From positions 1 through 23,632 of the IMG/VR virus record IMGVR_UViG_3300046463_000770: 23,632 bases of DNA; one strand, given 5' to 3'. Shown here one piece after another: positions 11,749 to 23,623 of this stretch (its first letter is position 1; each line of letters opens with the position of its first letter). Made by a program: the position numbers and the translations under genes. The stretch comes from a virus. The notes below the pieces were generated by a model. It was not told where the DNA came from. It saw nothing but the letters and a program-made list of their open reading frames with translations, and ran no database searches.

Positions 11749-12171
11749 TCACGCCGCCCTCACCGACTCTTCGAGCACCAGTAAGCTCTGCCGCACATGG
11801 CCGATTTCTTTCTGGATGCCCGCCTTTTCAATCTGCGATACATGCCCATCAGCAATGGCGTCATGAACAGCGCGGGACACATCCCCCGACTCAGCAGCCA
11901 GGTGCACCAGCGCTTGAATCAGGCTGATACCTTCAGGCCTCACAAGAGGCACCAACTCGTATCCCAAGGCGCTCGCCAGCAACTGCAGTGGCTCAGGATT
12001 TTTGCTGTGCACCAGAATCTGTAGGAACTGCTCCAGATTCAGCCGATGCGAGTCGTCATTCGGGTTGCTGCGGTTGAGCAGTGCGGTGTGGCTCATGCCC
12101 ATCAGGTGAGCCAATCGCTTTGGCCCCGCATCAAGCACTGCCTCATGAATTGCGCGATGTACTTGTTCCAT
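11749..12171 (-). CDS. CII-like regulator (Phage_CP76 / PF06892 type)
   Basis: Probable DNA-binding regulator of the CII/CP76 family that promotes or tunes the lysogenic decision. 140 aa. The N-terminal HTH region is KRLAHLMGMSHTALLNRSNPND at about 18-39, followed by HRLNLEQFLQILVHSKNPEPLQLLASALGY (about 42-71), a block I associate with CP76 proteins. The C-terminus is a long helix (HVSQIEKAGIQKEIGHVRQSL). ATG at 12171 is chosen because GAGGT lies 9 bases upstream and the protein then begins like its family; the longer frame reaches back into cro. It is the second gene after Cro in the leftward operon, the classical cII position. Confidence 0.78.
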   Translation of the reverse strand: MEQVHRAIHEAVLDAGPKRLAHLMGMSHTALLNRSNPNDDSHRLNLEQFLQILVHSKNPEPLQLLASALGYELVPLVRPEGISLIQALVHLAAESGDVSRAVHDAIADGHVSQIEKAGIQKEIGHVRQSLLVLEESVRAA

Positions 12172-12238
12172 TCGGGAAACCTCTTGGCGGTTGTCGTGGC
12201 AGCACATCCTGTCGTTGAGCGAAACTTTGCTCATCGGA

Positions 12239-12484
12239 TCAGGCGGCAGATTGCTCGGAGCTGGTGGATGAATTACGCAGATAAGCCCAGTCGATATCAG
12301 GACGCAGCTCTTCACACGTCACCGCCCTCCCCGACTCGCGATCAAGATTGATGGCGAGTCCGGGACCAGCCAGGCGATACCCGTAGGCAATCTGTTTGAG
12401 GTTGCCGACGCTGGTGCCGCTTCGCTCGGCTAGAGCTTCCAGTTGGGCCGGCTCCAAGGAGCGGATGAGGTCGAGTAGCGTCAT
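12239..12484 (-). CDS. Cro-like repressor (YdaS/Cro HTH)
   Basis: Small HTH protein expected to bind the shared operator and shut down repressor synthesis at the start of lytic growth. 81 aa. Helix-turn-helix: LEALAERSGTSVGNLKQIAYG at about residues 15-35, followed by a GPGLAINLDRESGRAVTCEELRPDIDWAYLR tail (about 40-70, quoted here in family terms) that is typical of YdaS/Cro-type proteins. ATG at 12484 has GGAGAT 6 bases upstream. It is divergent from the CI-like gene across a 98-base control region with matching operator-like repeats, and is first in the leftward early operon. Confidence 0.85.
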   Translation of the reverse strand: MTLLDLIRSLEPAQLEALAERSGTSVGNLKQIAYGYRLAGPGLAINLDRESGRAVTCEELRPDIDWAYLRNSSTSSEQSAA

Positions 12485-12582
12485 GGTGATCTCCGAAAGA
12501 GCTCCAGATTACACTTTGCTAATTTACATGGCAATAGCAATTAATAATTTACTGTTTGCTAACGCAGGGTCACTATTCGCCT
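12485..12582. promoter_or_regulatory. cro/cI divergent control region with operator repeats
   Basis: AT-rich 98-base spacer. Leftward (cro) promoter: TTGCCA at 12534-12529, 17-base spacer, TAATCT at 12511-12506. Rightward (cI) promoter: TTTACA at 12523-12528, 16-base spacer, TAATTT at 12545-12550. Operator-like repeats: TTTGCTAATTT at 12515-12525, TTTGCTAA at 12555-12562, and an inverted, diverged ATAGCAATTAAT at 12534-12545. One copy lies between the cro promoter hexamers, and the next overlaps the cI promoter start region. Promoter hexamers are by eye. Confidence 0.75.
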
Positions 12583-13008
12583 ATGGATATGAAAACTCTT
12601 CGGGTCGAAGCGCTGCGGCGTGTAATCGGCCAACTCAGCCAGAAAGATTTCGCCGACCAGCACGATCTGGACGCTTCCTATTTGTCCCAGATCCTCAATG
12701 GGCATCGAGGCCTGGGAGAGAAAGCCGCGCTCAATCTTGAGCAAAAGATCGGGTTGGCACCTGGCATCCTCGTAAATCCCAGTGGACAGGGTTCCAACAT
12801 CATCGAAGGTGAGTTCGGACGCTTTGAGGTCGTGCGCGAGCAGTCCCCTGCATACCAAGCCATGCTGGGAACCGCTTCACCCAAGTCGATCGCCATTATC
12901 GATAAACTGGCCAGAGCTGCGGCTAAGGGTAAGCTTCAGGAGTCGGACCTTGTGCTACTGGAAGGCATCGCTGGCCTGCTCGAAAAAGCCCACTCCGAAA
13001 AGCCATGA
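12583..13008 (+). CDS. CI-like prophage repressor, HTH only, no visible S24 domain
   Basis: Probable prophage repressor. 141 aa from ATG 12583. The HTH covers about residues 19-57: SQKDFADQHDLDASYLSQIL, then NGHRGLGEKAALNLEQKIGL. The C-terminal part (SIAIIDKLARAAAKGKLQES, DLVLLEGIAGLLEKA) is helical and short. It lacks the Ala/Cys-Gly cleavage site and Ser/Lys pair of LexA/S24-type repressors, and the length (about 140 versus 210-240) leaves no room for one. Start choice is uncertain: no strong ribosome site, and ATG 12589 is also possible. It is divergent from cro and followed by a terminator at 13024. Role as the main immunity repressor is inferred from position. Confidence 0.82.
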   Translation: MDMKTLRVEALRRVIGQLSQKDFADQHDLDASYLSQILNGHRGLGEKAALNLEQKIGLAPGILVNPSGQGSNIIEGEFGRFEVVREQSPAYQAMLGTASPKSIAIIDKLARAAAKGKLQESDLVLLEGIAGLLEKAHSEKP

Positions 13009-13054: not shown

Positions 13055-13843
13055 CTACTTCAGCAAGTCCTCTTCCCTGCTCAGCCACATCGCCTGAAGC
13101 TTGGTCAGCCCCTTGCCGGTGATCAGCGTCGAGCACGTCGGGATCGTGCCATCGATTGGATGCTCGAAGGTGCCAAGCTTCACATCGAGTAGACCTGCCT
13201 CGATCTTCACCTGATAGGGTTCGTTCGTCCTGGTCACCCAACCCTTCTGGCGCATGAACTGCAGCAACCGAGTACGGCCGGTGCCGATGATCTTCGCGGC
13301 CTGGGCTGCGTTGTACGTCTTGTGGGACACCGCGACCATGTCATGGAAAGCCACCTTCGGCGCATCCTGTTCCACCTTCACTTCAAGTTCATGGTTCTCC
13401 TTGGAGAGTTCGATGTTGTCCGCCTCCAACGCAACGACCTTCGTCACGTTTTCGGTGAGCAGCGCCAGGAGTGTGCGAGGGTCGCTCAGTGCTGCTGCGT
13501 AGTCGAAGGCCGGCTTAGCAATCTGCTCTTCCAACTCCTGCCAGCGATCAACCAAGCGAGCCGTGAATTCTGGGCAGAGTTGGGCGACGACTACGAAGCT
13601 ATCGCGCTTGTTGACCAGGTACTCCTGAACGACAACACCGTTTCCGGCCTTTGGCCCATCCTGCATTGCAGGTTGGGAGATGACACCCTTCGTTACGAGC
13701 CGGTCTATCGCTATCTTTACGTTGTCATGGCGGGAGACAACCAGATCCGCGATTTCGCGGGAGGACATTCTTCGCGGCACGCTCTGTTGAATCTGAAAAT
13801 GTGTCGCGACGCCGGTTTGCCGTTGCTGACTAGAGGAAATCAT
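13055..13843 (-). CDS. Rha-family antirepressor with KilAC (ANT) C-terminal domain
   Basis: Phage regulatory/antirepressor protein. 262 aa. N-terminal Rha domain (about 25-105): RRMSSREIADLVVSRHDNV, IAIDRLVTKGVI, YLVNKRDSFVVVAQLCPEF and ARLVDRWQELE. A linker with coiled-coil character (about 138-160) leads to a KilAC domain (about 165-260): KVAFHDMVAVSHKTYNAAQ, AAKIIGTGRTRLLQFMRQKGW, and a LTKLQAMWLSREEDLL end. ATG 13843 has GGAGAGAG 6 bases upstream; 25 further codons upstream overlap the DUF3077 gene and are excluded. It overlaps that gene by ATGA. Antirepressors of this type bind and inactivate phage repressors. The target here is unknown, but the adjacent non-cleavable CI is an obvious candidate. 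Confidence 0.87.
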   Translation of the reverse strand: MISSSQQRQTGVATHFQIQQSVPRRMSSREIADLVVSRHDNVKIAIDRLVTKGVISQPAMQDGPKAGNGVVVQEYLVNKRDSFVVVAQLCPEFTARLVDRWQELEEQIAKPAFDYAAALSDPRTLLALLTENVTKVVALEADNIELSKENHELEVKVEQDAPKVAFHDMVAVSHKTYNAAQAAKIIGTGRTRLLQFMRQKGWVTRTNEPYQVKIEAGLLDVKLGTFEHPIDGTIPTCSTLITGKGLTKLQAMWLSREEDLLK

Positions 13844-14151
13844 TGCGCTCTCTCCAAGCCTGCATGCGTCGAATCGACAATAACCTTCGCTGTATTCGCA
13901 GCCCGAAACAGAAGCCATGCTTGATTAGGCGTAATCCCATCGACCCCCATAGCAGCGGCTTCAAGCGACGATTTCAACTCACTAAGAATGCAGGAAGCCT
14001 CCTCGAGGGCATCTGTTACTGGGATCCCGGGCCGAACAGCAAGCAGGTGTTCTTGGTTCGGGTTGCAAATCGTGAAAGACAACTCCACCGTGACCGGCAT
14101 ACAGATAGCGCCAGCATTGAGTTTTTCGTTTACTGCGGTATGCTTATCCAT
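13840..14151 (-). CDS. DUF3077 family protein
   Basis: 103-aa protein that I recognise as DUF3077, a family common in Pseudomonas genomes and prophages. The conserved block is VRPGIPVTDALEEASCILSE (about residues 39-58), followed by a helix ending in AWLLFRAANTAKVIVDST (about 78-95). ATG 14151 has AGGA 8 bases upstream. It is translationally coupled to the antirepressor (ATGA overlap), so both are made together. The biochemical role of the family is not known to me; co-expression hints at a regulatory or antirepressor partner role. Confidence 0.78.
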   Translation of the reverse strand: MDKHTAVNEKLNAGAICMPVTVELSFTICNPNQEHLLAVRPGIPVTDALEEASCILSELKSSLEAAAMGVDGITPNQAWLLFRAANTAKVIVDSTHAGLERAQ

Positions 14152-14182
14152 GACGTTTTTCCTAGTAGATTGACGTTATCCA

Positions 14183-14215
14183 AACCTCAGCGCCGGCCAG
14201 CGCTGAGGTTTTTTT
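14183..14215. terminator. Strong hairpin with T-run between arc-like and DUF3077 genes
   Basis: Ten-base stem AACCTCAGCG (14183-14192) with CGCTGAGGTT (14201-14210), loop CCGGCCAG, then seven T on the plus strand (14209-14215). No plus-strand gene ends here, so the T-run serves rightward read-through from the cI side. On the minus strand the same stem is followed only by TTTGG, which would make a weak attenuator within the arc-ant operon. The T-run overlaps the stop codon of the Arc-like gene. Confidence 0.7.
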
Positions 14216-14378
14216 ATGCCTGCTGTTTTCCACGCTCAATCTCCTGCTCTAGAGACTTCCTCAGACGAAAGACAATTTCGCCGCTAAGGCTGCGACCGTT
14301 TTCAGTGGCCTTCGCTTCAAGCTTCTCCCTCATCTCACAGAGCATTCTGACGGCGGTGGTGATTTTTAAAGTCTTCAT
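14214..14378 (-). CDS. Arc-like ribbon-helix-helix DNA-binding protein, 54 aa
   Basis: Short gene found by translating the minus strand. The product reads MKTLKITTAVRMLCEMREK, then LEAKATENGRSLSGEIVFRL and RKSLEQEIERGKQQA. NGRSLSGEIVFRLR at about residues 27-40 is the helix of Arc/Mnt-type ribbon-helix-helix proteins (compare NGRSVNSEI in Arc). The basic N-terminal strand would contact the DNA major groove. AAGGAGG lies 4 bases before the ATG, the best ribosome site in the window. It is first in the minus-strand unit with the DUF3077 protein and the antirepressor, and diverges from the XRE repressor. By analogy with P22 Arc it should repress its own operon. Confidence 0.85.
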   Translation of the reverse strand: MKTLKITTAVRMLCEMREKLEAKATENGRSLSGEIVFRLRKSLEQEIERGKQQA

Positions 14379-14488
14379 AGCGCCTCCTTATGTGCGTTTT
14401 GTGAGTTTAATGCTTTTTGTGACTTCGTCAAACATTTTTGCTTTTTGTGCGTTTGCTGTACGCTTCTAGACACGTACAGGGGATCGAC
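14379..14488. promoter_or_regulatory. Divergent arc/XRE control region with direct repeats
   Basis: Leftward promoter for the arc-ant unit: TTGACG at 14431-14426, 16-base spacer, TAAACT at 14409-14404. Repeats that may be operators: TGCTTTTTGTG at 14411-14421 and again at 14439-14449 (28 bases apart), and a related TGTGCGTTTTGTG at 14391-14403. They overlap the leftward promoter. A rightward promoter for the XRE gene is less clear; TTGTGC with TAGACA near 14446-14473 is a weak candidate. Confidence 0.6.
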
Positions 14489-14977
14489 ATGTCCAACGAT
14501 TTCGCTTCAAAACTCATTTCCCAGAGGAGTGAGAAAAACCTTACACAGCAACAACTTGCTGACGCCATCGGAATTACTCCATCGCAGATATCGCGGTACG
14601 AGTCAGGCCAGGCTAAGCCTCGAAAAACCGTGTTAATAAAGCTTGCTAAAGCTCTAGGCGTTGAGCCTGAAGCACTACAAGCTGACGGTGAACCTGATGA
14701 TGTTGAGCTGATGTTCGACGTTAATTTTCGAGACTTCGGTAAAATGCGTTGCTCCTTGCACTTCTCAAGGTCGCAGCACGCGAAGCTCACAGAGATGTAT
14801 GAAGACCTCGACGAAAAAGGCCGAGTGGATTTGCTCGGTGGTCTCCTGAAGAAAGCCACGCTTGAATCGGATATCTATGTAGAAGAAGGCCGAAAATTAA
14901 TTCCGCAGAATGATGAGATAACCGGCATTTCAGCGCGCTTCATCAATCCTCATGAAAAAAACACCAAGCCCAACTAG
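14489..14977 (+). CDS. XRE-family transcriptional repressor
   Basis: 162-aa regulator. A clear XRE helix-turn-helix occupies about residues 8-62: LISQRSEKNLTQQQLADAIG, ITPSQISRYESGQAKPRKTV, LIKLAKALGVEPEAL. The rest is helical (SRSQHAKLTEMYEDLDEKGR, GGLLKKATLESD) without a peptidase domain. ATG 14489 is chosen because AGGGGAT lies 7 bases upstream; the upstream frame covers the operator region. It diverges from the Arc-like gene and probably represses that promoter, taking the place Mnt has in P22. No clear intrinsic terminator follows within the next 170 bases. Confidence 0.85.
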   Translation: MSNDFASKLISQRSEKNLTQQQLADAIGITPSQISRYESGQAKPRKTVLIKLAKALGVEPEALQADGEPDDVELMFDVNFRDFGKMRCSLHFSRSQHAKLTEMYEDLDEKGRVDLLGGLLKKATLESDIYVEEGRKLIPQNDEITGISARFINPHEKNTKPN

Positions 14978-16942: not shown

Positions 16943-18193
16943 ATGGCCGCACTCGAAAAGCGCTATCCCCGCGAGTCGTTCACCAAGAAGCTGGAGCGGA
17001 TCTGCCAACGGCTGGATGAGGCATCGATTCGCAACATCGCTCACAAAGATTTTTTCAACAACGCAACAACGTCTCAGGTCGAGATCACTTCGCTATGGGT
17101 TGTGGGCTCATATGCCCGCGGCGCACTGATGTGTGGCGACCTGGATCTTGTCCTTGAGTACCAACTTGTCGAAGGTCCCCAACCTGCGCCCAGGAGAATA
17201 ACGAAGACTTTCTTCGGCGCCATTCCGTACGTCAGCTATTACTTCGGAAAACCAGAGAGCAGCACGTCGGGGGTGGTATTCCCTGACGCAATCCCGATTT
17301 GGACCGAGCCTGGCTGCGACTGGAGACTTGCGATCGATTCTATTAAGCCTGTCCCTAGCGCCGGTCGTGCAAAACGGGAGACAGACTCGATCCCATTACG
17401 ACCGGAACAGCTGTACATGGAACCGGAGCATCTGCAGGCGATAGCGGCCCAGGAGAAAGAGGGCCTGCTTGAGTGGGAGTTTGTTGAGTTCACCGCGGCC
17501 GACCTCGAAACTGTACCAACAGAAGAGATCAGCGAGCGAGATAGAAAGCTCCTTCGGATTGCCCCCATGATGGCGAAGAAATCCCAGGTGCTTATACCCG
17601 CGATAATTCGGCTGATGACAAAACACGAACGCTTTGGAGTCTGGGACTCCTCAGACAGCTATCACGTAAAGTTTAACTGCGGGGCCACAGCTCTACTGCT
17701 GGGGCGCCCTGCCTTGCCCTACAACCCGTTCGACGATGAGCCAACCATCAAGCAGTACGCACTCATCCCGCATTTGAGCCAGAAAGGCCCTAATGGTGCC
17801 TGGTTAATTCGGCGCGGGGCCAACCATCCGGACACTCAAGCTCTCGCAGGCAGACACGCCTTTTATCTCGGGAGTCCAGGATCCCCAGAGACGGTGGCGT
17901 ATCGTGATCTCAATAAAACCTGGTCAATGGAAATGCTCGAGCTTTTCAATACACACGACGACGCCAAAGAGTTTGCTGCGATGCTGGATGAGGGAAGTGA
18001 CTTGCCCGCGACAGAGATTGGTAGAGCCGAAGGGCTAGAGCTGATCTCGCTCTTTGCTTTGGTGGACATCGTCGAGATTGGAGAGCATCAGTTTGCGATG
18101 ACACACGCCGGCGCCGCTTACTCTGAGCGAGACAAGGCGACGATGGAAGAGATCACCACCGCCCTCCCCCCTAGTGACCGCGATCAATGCTGA
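16943..18193 (+). CDS. Polymerase-beta-type nucleotidyltransferase, prophage cargo
   Basis: 416-aa protein with the nucleotidyltransferase signature VVGSYARGALMCGDLDLVLEY: Gly55-Ser56 of the GS motif, and Asp66 and Asp68 as the metal-binding pair. The third catalytic carboxylate is not obvious; candidates lie at 115-132 (VVFPDAIPIW, CDWRLAID). The remaining 280 residues are unassigned and include FNCGATALLLGRPALPYNPF and a helical end. Such enzymes transfer NMP to RNA, protein or small molecules; in mobile elements many belong to defence or toxin systems. It has its own terminator-bounded unit, a weak ribosome site (AAGAGA), and its last 10 bases overlap a convergent small gene. Enzyme class is confident; target is unknown. 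Confidence 0.78.
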   Translation: MAALEKRYPRESFTKKLERICQRLDEASIRNIAHKDFFNNATTSQVEITSLWVVGSYARGALMCGDLDLVLEYQLVEGPQPAPRRITKTFFGAIPYVSYYFGKPESSTSGVVFPDAIPIWTEPGCDWRLAIDSIKPVPSAGRAKRETDSIPLRPEQLYMEPEHLQAIAAQEKEGLLEWEFVEFTAADLETVPTEEISERDRKLLRIAPMMAKKSQVLIPAIIRLMTKHERFGVWDSSDSYHVKFNCGATALLLGRPALPYNPFDDEPTIKQYALIPHLSQKGPNGAWLIRRGANHPDTQALAGRHAFYLGSPGSPETVAYRDLNKTWSMEMLELFNTHDDAKEFAAMLDEGSDLPATEIGRAEGLELISLFALVDIVEIGEHQFAMTHAGAAYSERDKATMEEITTALPPSDRDQC

Positions 18194-18692: not shown

Positions 18693-19178
18693 TTACGCAG
18701 CAGCGCTGTCCTGAAAGGGGAGCTGAAGCTCCTCGACGTCATATGTGAAGTCGAGAACTATCTGTATTGGCTCCTGAGAGCGATCTTTCGTGTTGTACAC
18801 ATCAACGTCTGTTTTCAGTTGATAGCAATCACCGACAATTTGCTGTCTACGTTGAGCGAAAGACCTCACGAAGTGTTCTCGAGGTGCTAATTCGTCATCA
18901 ATATCAGCCCAGAGCGAAAGCGTCTTGTTGCCTTTTTTCGATCTGACAGCATGTTTTGCTCTGTAACGCTGACCGTTCTTGTTGGTTCTGTACTCTTCAC
19001 GAAAAGCTTGAGAGATATCTGAAGCAATCGCGTCAATAATTGTTTTGGTGTTGGGTTTGTGAAGGCCGTTCTTATATGCCCACGCCGCAATCGCGTGAGC
19101 ATCAATCAGGCCATCATCACCGACTTCTTTTTTGTATCGTTCAAGATATAATTTTATCTGATTGGAATAAGCAGTCAT
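18693..19178 (-). CDS. Third gene of HigB/HigA-ImmA module, unknown function
   Basis: 161 aa, no named family. I recognise the type as one often found directly downstream of HigA/ImmA-like genes. Visible blocks: NQIKLYLERYKKEVGDDGLI at the N-terminus, FREEYRTNKNGQRYRAKHAV in the middle, SLWADIDDELAPREHFVRSF, QRRQQIVGDCYQLKTDVDVY, and IQIVLDFTYDVEEL at the C-terminus. The middle is strongly basic and the ends acidic, which would fit binding to nucleic acid or to the toxin. ATG 19178 has AAGGGG 6 bases upstream. It follows the HigA-ImmA stop by only 10 bases and is closed by terminator hairpins, so it belongs to the same mRNA. Confidence 0.75.
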   Translation of the reverse strand: MTAYSNQIKLYLERYKKEVGDDGLIDAHAIAAWAYKNGLHKPNTKTIIDAIASDISQAFREEYRTNKNGQRYRAKHAVRSKKGNKTLSLWADIDDELAPREHFVRSFAQRRQQIVGDCYQLKTDVDVYNTKDRSQEPIQIVLDFTYDVEELQLPFQDSAAA

Positions 19179-19188
19179 AAGTACCCCT

Positions 19189-20307
19189 TCAGCTTGAAAG
19201 TGATCCCCAGCCATCGGCATCAGCCGAAGGCAAGACGAAGCTTCTTACTTTAACTTGATGCTTTCTAAGGAAGTCGTGGCGCTCAAGCTTTCTCTGGAGC
19301 TGGCCTACAACTATCCCAGGGTGGACTTTAATTCTTTGTGCGAACAAAATAATCTTTTGCTCTGAAAAGTACGGCTGAACGCGAGAAACAAAATCGTTAA
19401 GCTGTTTGACTGGAACGCAAAATTCTTGCGCCGCCTCGTTGGCAAGCTTCTCGCACTCGTCTAGCTCTCCATCAGTAGACCCTAAATCAAGGTCTACTAT
19501 CGGCATGTCGGAATGTCGTCCATCTTCTCTTAGAACGTGTTCAATCTCGTGCCGAAGTACAAACCAAAAATTGTCTATTCTGTCGTAACGAAGGGTCATA
19601 CCGATCACTGGCTTGTCCTCCGATAGCCAGAAGCAGGCACCATCTATTCGTGAACCAGATATAGCCTCTACAAAAACTAGTCGAACGCCGGCTTCCGCAA
19701 GGATTCTTGGTACGTGTCGAATTTCTTCAGCGGAAAGCAGTAAATTTTTTAAACTGTCTACGGCAGCCAGCAACTTCTCTTTTTTATAAGATGTAATGAC
19801 CTGTCTGTCGGCCATGAGCCTGACACGGAAAAGCCATGCAAGCTGAAGAGAAGTAACATCCAAAGCAACATCGGTCTTCTTTGCGTAGTGAGTCAGATTT
19901 GGATGATCTTGTAGTGTAGGTATGTTGAAAAAATCACAAAACCGTTGCTCAAGAACATCTAGATTTTCACTTGCCTGAATCCAGCCGCGTCTAAGCATTT
20001 CCCGTACAGGGAATTTGCTGTACAAATTAGCCTTTCTAGCGACACTACTGTGTTCTGTTTTAACTTTAGAGAGCTGGTATTGACTCTCTAAACTCATCCA
20101 GTACTCAGCAGATGTTCCGAAAGCCTCGGCAAGCCCTTTCGCTGTTTCAGGCGTTACGGCTCGCTTCCCAGCGATCAGCTCACTAATAAGGCGCGGCGGG
20201 CGGTCCAGAATGTCCGCAAGTTCTTGCTGACTCCACTCTCGCGCTTCCAGCTCTTCCCGCAGGAACTCTCCTGGCGGAAATACTTCAGCAGGCACGCGTG
20301 CGCTCAT
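19189..20307 (-). CDS. higA: HigA-type antitoxin fused to ImmA/IrrE metallopeptidase domain
   Basis: 372 aa, about three to four times a plain HigA. The N-terminus is a HigA-type HTH (about 10-80): PPGEFLREELEAREWSQQEL, ADILDRPPRLISELIAGKRA, TAKGLAEAFGTSAEYWMSLE. The C-terminal half is an ImmA/IrrE (COG2856) peptidase: FVLRHEIEHVL with HEIEH at 253-257 binding zinc, and NEAAQEFCVP at about 290-299, whose Glu is the usual third ligand. It likely neutralises the HigB-like toxin and represses the operon through the palindrome upstream, while the peptidase could cleave itself or another regulator in response to a signal. It follows the toxin gene by 16 bases. Confidence 0.87.
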   Translation of the reverse strand: MSARVPAEVFPPGEFLREELEAREWSQQELADILDRPPRLISELIAGKRAVTPETAKGLAEAFGTSAEYWMSLESQYQLSKVKTEHSSVARKANLYSKFPVREMLRRGWIQASENLDVLEQRFCDFFNIPTLQDHPNLTHYAKKTDVALDVTSLQLAWLFRVRLMADRQVITSYKKEKLLAAVDSLKNLLLSAEEIRHVPRILAEAGVRLVFVEAISGSRIDGACFWLSEDKPVIGMTLRYDRIDNFWFVLRHEIEHVLREDGRHSDMPIVDLDLGSTDGELDECEKLANEAAQEFCVPVKQLNDFVSRVQPYFSEQKIILFAQRIKVHPGIVVGQLQRKLERHDFLRKHQVKVRSFVLPSADADGWGSLSS

Positions 20308-20323
20308 AATAATAACTCTCCTG

Positions 20324-20620
20324 TCAGTGATAGTCGGCTATTTCAACGATTCCGATGACTTTGCAGGGGTGATTTCCTCTGATTTCCAGAATTAGACGCC
20401 ACTGTAGATTTAGTCTGATCGAATGCTGGCCTTCTCTGCTTCCTTTCAATTTTTCACAGTGCAGCGACTTCACTGCGTATAGATCTCTCTCATCACTAAA
20501 CGCACGAATTTGCTGCATACGCCTTCGGAAGGCGCGGACTACGTCCTGTGAATGACCTGCTGTGAATCTAGCTTCAACCTCAAGTCTATCCAGGTCTTCA
20601 TCGTCGAATTCAACGTCCAT
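20324..20620 (-). CDS. higB: HigB/RelE-type toxin
   Basis: 98 aa. RelE-superfamily toxin expected to cut mRNA at the ribosome. Family blocks: GHSQDVVRAFRRRMQQIRAF (about 22-41), DERDLYAVKSLHCEKLKG (43-60), and GQHSIRLNLQWRLILEI (about 64-80), in which the basic and aromatic residues of HigB active sites are retained. It precedes the antitoxin gene, as in other higBA loci. A leftward promoter with hexamers at 20655-20650 and 20632-20627 and a palindrome at 20665-20679 lie upstream. The predicted transcription start falls at or within a base or two of the ATG, with no ribosome site, so the mRNA may be leaderless. Confidence 0.88.
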   Translation of the reverse strand: MDVEFDDEDLDRLEVEARFTAGHSQDVVRAFRRRMQQIRAFSDERDLYAVKSLHCEKLKGSREGQHSIRLNLQWRLILEIRGNHPCKVIGIVEIADYH

Positions 20621-23546: not shown

Positions 23547-23590
23547 TGGTCGGGACGGAGTGATTCGAACACTCGACCCCTAGCACCCCA
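23547..23590. other. Probable phage attachment site in the 3' half of tRNA-Pro
   Basis: The integrase gene ends 69 bases away and points at the tRNA 3' end, the standard arrangement for integration into a tRNA. The core should lie in the 3' half of the tRNA, and the sequence left of about 23547 should then be phage DNA. The other attachment site is outside the window, so the core cannot be defined; the limits given are approximate. Confidence 0.5.
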
Positions 23591-23623
23591 TGCTAGTGCG
23601 CTACCGGACTGCGCTACGCCCCG
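23547..23623 (-). tRNA. tRNA-Pro(GGG)
   Basis: 77-base cloverleaf on the minus strand. Acceptor CGGGGCG pairs with CGTCCCG, D arm contains AGCGCAGTCCGGTAGCGC, anticodon stem CTAGC/GCTAG encloses ATGGGGT with anticodon GGG, and the T arm is GAGTG-TTCGAAT-CACTC. The CCA end is encoded. All stems pair (one G-T in the acceptor), so the gene is intact. Its 3' end faces the integrase. Confidence 0.95.

Follow-up and report, generated by a model that had tools for sequence, protein, structure and literature searches.

The locus at 13055-14977 of the window (the whole analysed stretch of 23,632 bases from an IMG/VR virus record, whose close relatives are Pseudomonas prophages) is very probably an immI-type antirepressor switch, in which three brakes would act on the antirepressor, namely an XRE regulator and an Arc-like protein on transcription and a sar-like antisense RNA on translation. 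The gene for this RNA is predicted on the opposite strand between arc and the DUF3077 gene, where the original prediction had overlooked a strong hairpin with a T-run oriented against the operon. Its assignment as sar-like is based on compensatory changes in the RNA, on synonymous-site constraint over its promoter and on the detection of P22 sar by an RNA-only model. The features of the region are as follows.

11749-12174, minus strand: CII-like (CP76) regulator (Pfam Phage_CP76, 2.1e-27)
12239-12484, minus strand: YdaS/Cro-like regulator of the immC-like cluster (Pfam YdaS, 1.8e-7)
12556-13008, plus strand: open reading frame of XRE1, the prophage-repressor candidate, with a likely ATG at 12583 (PHROG transcriptional regulator, 1.1e-6)
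13055-13843, minus strand: Rha-KilAC (Roi-like) antirepressor, ant (ANT/KilAC, 8.7e-21, and Phage_pRha, 3.3e-7)
13840-14151, minus strand: DUF3077 protein, 103 aa (Pfam DUF3077, PF11275, 1.6e-6, 28.7 bits, above the cut-off of 21)
14117-14122 and 14139-14144, plus strand: predicted antisense RNA promoter within DUF3077 codons, TTGAGT, 16 bp, TATGCT (conserved register, codon entropy)
14149-14215, plus strand: predicted sar-like antisense RNA, ~67 nt (covariance-model matches, covariation, fold z -7.9)
5' end of this RNA, plus strand: hairpin covering the DUF3077 start and ribosome site (conserved with compensatory changes)
14182-14211, plus strand: terminator hairpin of this RNA, ending beside the arc stop and followed by a T-run
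14214-14378, minus strand: Arc-like ribbon-helix-helix (RHH) protein, 54 aa (Pfam Arc, 5.9e-9)
14379-14488: shared control region between arc and XRE
14431-14426 and 14409-14404, minus strand: arc promoter, -35 TTGACG and -10 TAAACT
14393-14408, 14411-14426 and 14439-14454: three direct repeats in the shared control region
14456-14479: palindrome CTGTACG-N10-CGTACAG in the shared control region
14489-14977, plus strand: XRE regulator in the Mnt position, ATG at 14489 (Pfam HTH_3, 8.3e-19)

The four genes on which the original prediction was built (XRE, Arc-like, DUF3077 and Rha-KilAC) are all intact at their claimed places with the immC-like cluster adjoining, and the arc ribosome site, which had been called the best in the window, is indeed a perfect AAGGAGG, the sole other AAGGAGG-N4-9-ATG falling within a longer open reading frame. 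For the antirepressor, a start at 13843 is likelier than one at 13918. When the antirepressor was used as a query against viral contigs, 31 loci were obtained, of which 25 (L004-L028) show the order regulator, DUF3077, antirepressor, convergent XRE1, YdaS and CII. With the Arc-like gene included behind a divergent regulator, this order is seen in some 25 IMG/VR contigs as well as named Pseudomonas genomes, a recurrence that is not expected by chance. A short RHH gene lies directly 5' of the target of the antisense RNA in P22 and in all of 56 loci except L010; there the automatic scan did not pick one up, but a 69-aa RHH-like open reading frame is visible. Among solved structures, an engineered P22 Arc and P22 Mnt come closest to the Arc-like protein. 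The anatomy agrees with a second layer of immunity next to the immC-like cluster.

Elsewhere in the window, the stretch 18693-20620 (minus strand) resembles a PD-Lambda-2-type anti-phage system within the prophage: it encodes a HigB-like toxin, an XRE protein with a match to PADLOC PD-Lambda-2_B (4e-48) and one further open reading frame. Beside the immunity region, a nucleotidyltransferase-like protein is encoded at 16943-18193 on the plus strand (DNA_pol_B_palm, 4e-4, under the Pfam cut-off), and a tRNA-Pro gene at the window end (23547-23623) adjoins an integrase gene and is a likely attachment site.

A P22 immI-type locus has a divergent RHH repressor, Mnt, where the window has an XRE protein. 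The slot opposite arc is occupied by an XRE protein in some related loci and by a Mnt-like RHH protein with Arc-domain similarity in others, and hence the proposal that XRE stands in Mnt's place captures a real alternation. The control region between the divergent genes is 97% identical to that of phage Medea1 over 14393-14465, and the arc coding sequence is 73% identical.

The textbook antisense RNA sar of P22 has been known mainly in P22-like phages. Among the relatives of the window, the sequences of the corresponding hairpin vary while the structure is kept, and the DUF3077 ribosome site is covered by a further hairpin. RNAalifold gives 12 terminator pairs, 8 of them with changes on both sides. 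Over 41 structurally aligned sequences, which were fitted to the covariance model and are thereby biased towards paired cells, 96.1% of the cells are paired versus 75.2 +/- 1.0 in shuffled alignments and 31-49% in slid controls, and 169 cells carry compensatory changes versus 49.8 +/- 6.0 after shuffling; the slid controls and the differences between stems speak against the fitting bias as the whole explanation. An initial MAFFT alignment of the antisense RNAs had misplaced their 5' ends and was discarded in favour of the covariance-model alignments. In 28 of 28 cases, folding is more stable for the antisense strand (mean -28.5 kcal/mol) than for the sense strand (-22.3 kcal/mol), as the G-U pairs of the former turn into A-C mismatches on the latter; the window has a fold z of -7.9 on the antisense and -4.6 on the sense strand.

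The sar of P22 has its own promoter; for the antisense RNA of the window, a promoter conserved in register is predicted. Four bases ahead of the start-codon complement lies a -10-like hexamer that reads TATGCT in the window and TATTCT, TATTAT, TAATAT or others elsewhere. The pattern TAnnnT is present at this register in all loci (56/56) and all divergent clusters (12/12), compared with at most 1/12 at the other offsets tested. The best -35-like hexamer stands at a 16-bp spacer in 11/12 divergent clusters. The window promoter itself fits sigma-70 only fairly well (8/12), without the TGn extension found in most other copies. Constraint on the same stretch is visible in the coding sequence: for the conserved residues of prophage-type DUF3077 (34 distinct genes), normalised codon entropy is 0.08 in codons 2-15 and 0.66 later (p 4e-5), and the -35 codons AAA-CTC-AAT are invariant. 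A pattern scan for these codons returned mostly unrelated contigs.

The relation to P22 sar was recovered with R2, an RNA-only covariance model built from Pseudomonas-type sequences only, without P22, promoter or protein information. Over P22 immI (1.6 kb) its sole significant match is P22 sar (30.1 bits, E 1.7e-6, roughly calibrated), matched over its whole length and at the place marked by Rfam RF00262. Conversely, RF00262 scores 44.8 bits against the Pseudomonas locus L238 (gathering threshold 43) and finds six more loci below the gathering score, in each case at the position found by R2. On the window, Rfam gives no match at gathering thresholds and a permissive search yields chance matches only; RF00262 in particular has no match there at E<=1; the relative L238 passes the gathering threshold.

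R2 was scanned over 398 Pseudomonas genomes and 30 loci were fetched. In 24 of them the match covers a start codon and is accompanied by the -10-like hexamer, and 17 of the 24 had not gone into model building. All 17 new loci have the RNA antisense to the start codon, an Arc-like gene upstream and TAnnnT at -10 (17/17). Ten of their targets could be typed, as four Bro-N, one AntA, three P22_AR_N and two Phage_pRha proteins, and by eye the remaining seven are similar, one of them (L245) truncated. By comparison, none of 16 control matches (the six remaining R2 loci and ten from the class-level search) carries the TAnnnT hexamer; they are ordinary terminators without hexamer or antirepressor frame. 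This class-level search, in which R3 was run beyond Pseudomonas over 369 class genomes, gave besides G001 itself only matches of at most 38 bits, which were ordinary terminators in the ten loci checked. The reverse test, with 19 P22_AR_N loci in 249 genomes, showed the RNA in 5/5 loci with an Arc-like gene and 0/14 without, the Arc-like gene being scored within the fetched stretch only. No report of sar in Pseudomonas was found in the literature searched.

Two further arrangements were seen. At L287, L288 and L289, one antisense RNA seems to precede two antirepressor genes in tandem, with a P22_AR_N gene following the RNA at a distance of ~1 kb. At L085:2233-2432 of a Pseudomonas genome, close to an ordinary DUF3077 gene, the C4 antisense RNA of Rfam is found together with its targets and isrK, which is another antirepressor-type RNA circuit.

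In P22, sar blocks ant translation, and Mnt and Arc repress transcription (PMC11016777, PMC2629481, PMC13397905). The mechanism that we infer for the window adds expression of the RNA, protein-DNA and protein-protein targets and an effect on XRE1 to what the sequence shows, namely the gene arrangement, the conserved RNA structure, the constraint on the promoter, the relation to P22 sar and the coupling geometry. The XRE protein in Mnt's place would repress the promoter of the arc-DUF3077-ant operon from the shared control region in the lysogen, and upon infection or induction, with XRE not yet accumulated, the operon would be transcribed until Arc binds the shared control region and damps it. 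A constitutive antisense RNA of ~67 nt, starting within the DUF3077 codons and ending at the terminator beside the arc stop, would pair with the DUF3077 ribosome site and block DUF3077 translation. The ant gene starts on the DUF3077 stop codon, an overlap present in 38/38 DUF3077 loci (ATGA in the window), so that blocking translation of DUF3077 should lower that of ant as well. Antirepressor that is set free would inactivate XRE1, the main repressor candidate, and favour lytic growth. XRE1, which is the convergent neighbour of the antirepressor in the relatives too, is the probable target of Ant. No S24 peptidase match is seen in either XRE protein; XRE1 is thus probably not RecA-cleavable, and an antirepressor route to induction is plausible.

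The analogy with P22 immI is supported for the operon of Arc and antirepressor and for the divergent regulator, and is strengthened by the sar-like RNA, but the role suggested for DUF3077 as a partner in antirepression finds no support in the comparative evidence. XRE, Arc, antisense RNA and antirepressor occur together without DUF3077 in phage Medea1 and in a P. aeruginosa plasmid record, and since such homologous modules are common, DUF3077 is dispensable to the module in general. As a diagnostic partner it was rejected as well, ordinary paralogues being widespread: some DUF3077 match occurs in 168/398 Pseudomonas genomes and the prophage type in 9 of these. Ordinary matches mostly begin near model position 20-24 and stay under 57 bits, and no antirepressor relative was seen in their fetched loci, while the prophage type scores above 150 bits, has an N-terminal extension overlapping the antisense promoter and always adjoins Arc and Ant in the loci examined. 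Residues 1-39 of the predicted structure have pLDDT <50 and the rest forms a helical hairpin too generic for fold search; no PDB relative was found.

That the co-conservation reflects a protein partnership, with DUF3077 as an obligate co-antirepressor (or anti-antirepressor) of Ant, is an unlikely reading, to which the constant coupling of prophage-type DUF3077 to a Rha-KilAC gene lends some weight. It is opposed by the DUF3077-less homologous modules, including Medea1 with its near-identical operators, in which the antisense RNA lies directly on the antirepressor; the antirepressors of these modules are, on the other hand, different proteins, and a partnership special to the window Ant may exist. 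The data support DUF3077 as the predicted first target of the RNA, translationally coupled to ant. It is tentatively conceivable, with something approaching an even chance, that the antisense RNA has shifted from the antirepressor to the interposed DUF3077 gene, creating a translational relay in which silencing by sar would hit DUF3077 directly and reach ant via start-stop coupling alone, and that the N-terminal extension exists because it encodes the antisense promoter. At L020-L028 and L056, the N-terminal domains of the coupled antirepressors differ from prophage to prophage and the KilAC end is mostly alike, as if swapped.

Control of an unrelated accessory (moron) operon by the XRE/Arc pair, rather than of the lysogeny decision, would have a precedent in the Medea1 module, which sits among tail genes as does the P22-like 'ant moron' (PMC2629481), but is improbable given that the module of the window family adjoins immC-like genes and that every typed downstream gene belongs to an antirepressor family. 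Least probable of all is that the near-symmetric hairpin immediately 3' of arc is a mere terminator or attenuator of the arc transcript with no antisense RNA made, as the T-run follows it on the opposite strand only, the G-U pairs favour that strand in 28/28, a promoter-like element stands upstream in fixed register, compensatory changes preserve the 5' hairpin over the start codon and the model detects the proven P22 sar.

Cumulatively, these data indicate a broad sar-like family in Pseudomonas prophages in which one architecture is kept while the regulator (XRE or Mnt-like), the target (DUF3077, Bro-N, AntA, P22_AR_N or Rha) and even the promoter sequence change, which offers a natural swap set for finding out which elements an antirepressor switch cannot lose. 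Sar-type regulation would span several antirepressor families, and in the window the RNA would act on an interposed gene. An N-terminal MxNNST-like motif common to unrelated antirepressors may be explained as the coding imprint of the antisense -10 box.

Compared with P22 immI (mnt, arc, sar, ant), the window shares the divergent regulator, the short RHH Arc first in the operon, a predicted antisense RNA after arc and over the start of the next gene, and a downstream antirepressor, with similar dimensions (arc of 54 aa versus 53 in P22, arc-to-next-gene gap of 62 nt versus 68, divergent gap of 110 nt versus 90). It differs in having XRE for Mnt, in an antirepressor of another family, which carries Phage_pRha and KilAC only and lacks the P22_AR_N domain (PF10547) of P22 Ant, in adjoining immC-like genes and in the interposed DUF3077 gene, which bears the antisense promoter. 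The predicted RNA resembles sar (RF00262) in its length of ~67 nt, its two hairpins, its placement and strand with respect to arc and the following gene, whose ribosome site it covers, and its terminator beside arc; its sequence is too divergent for RF00262 and its target is DUF3077, not ant. HK022/HK97 Roi/Rha antirepressors are ~38% identical to the window Ant over 89% of its length, in a genomic setting that differs from that of the window. For the Medea1 module (L106:3184-4107), the annotated Rha start overlaps arc, and ribosome site and homology favour a start ~85 nt downstream. The XRE/Arc/Rha module of Medea1 has the antisense RNA architecture of the window along with the nearly identical control region, but no DUF3077, the RNA lying directly over the rha start.
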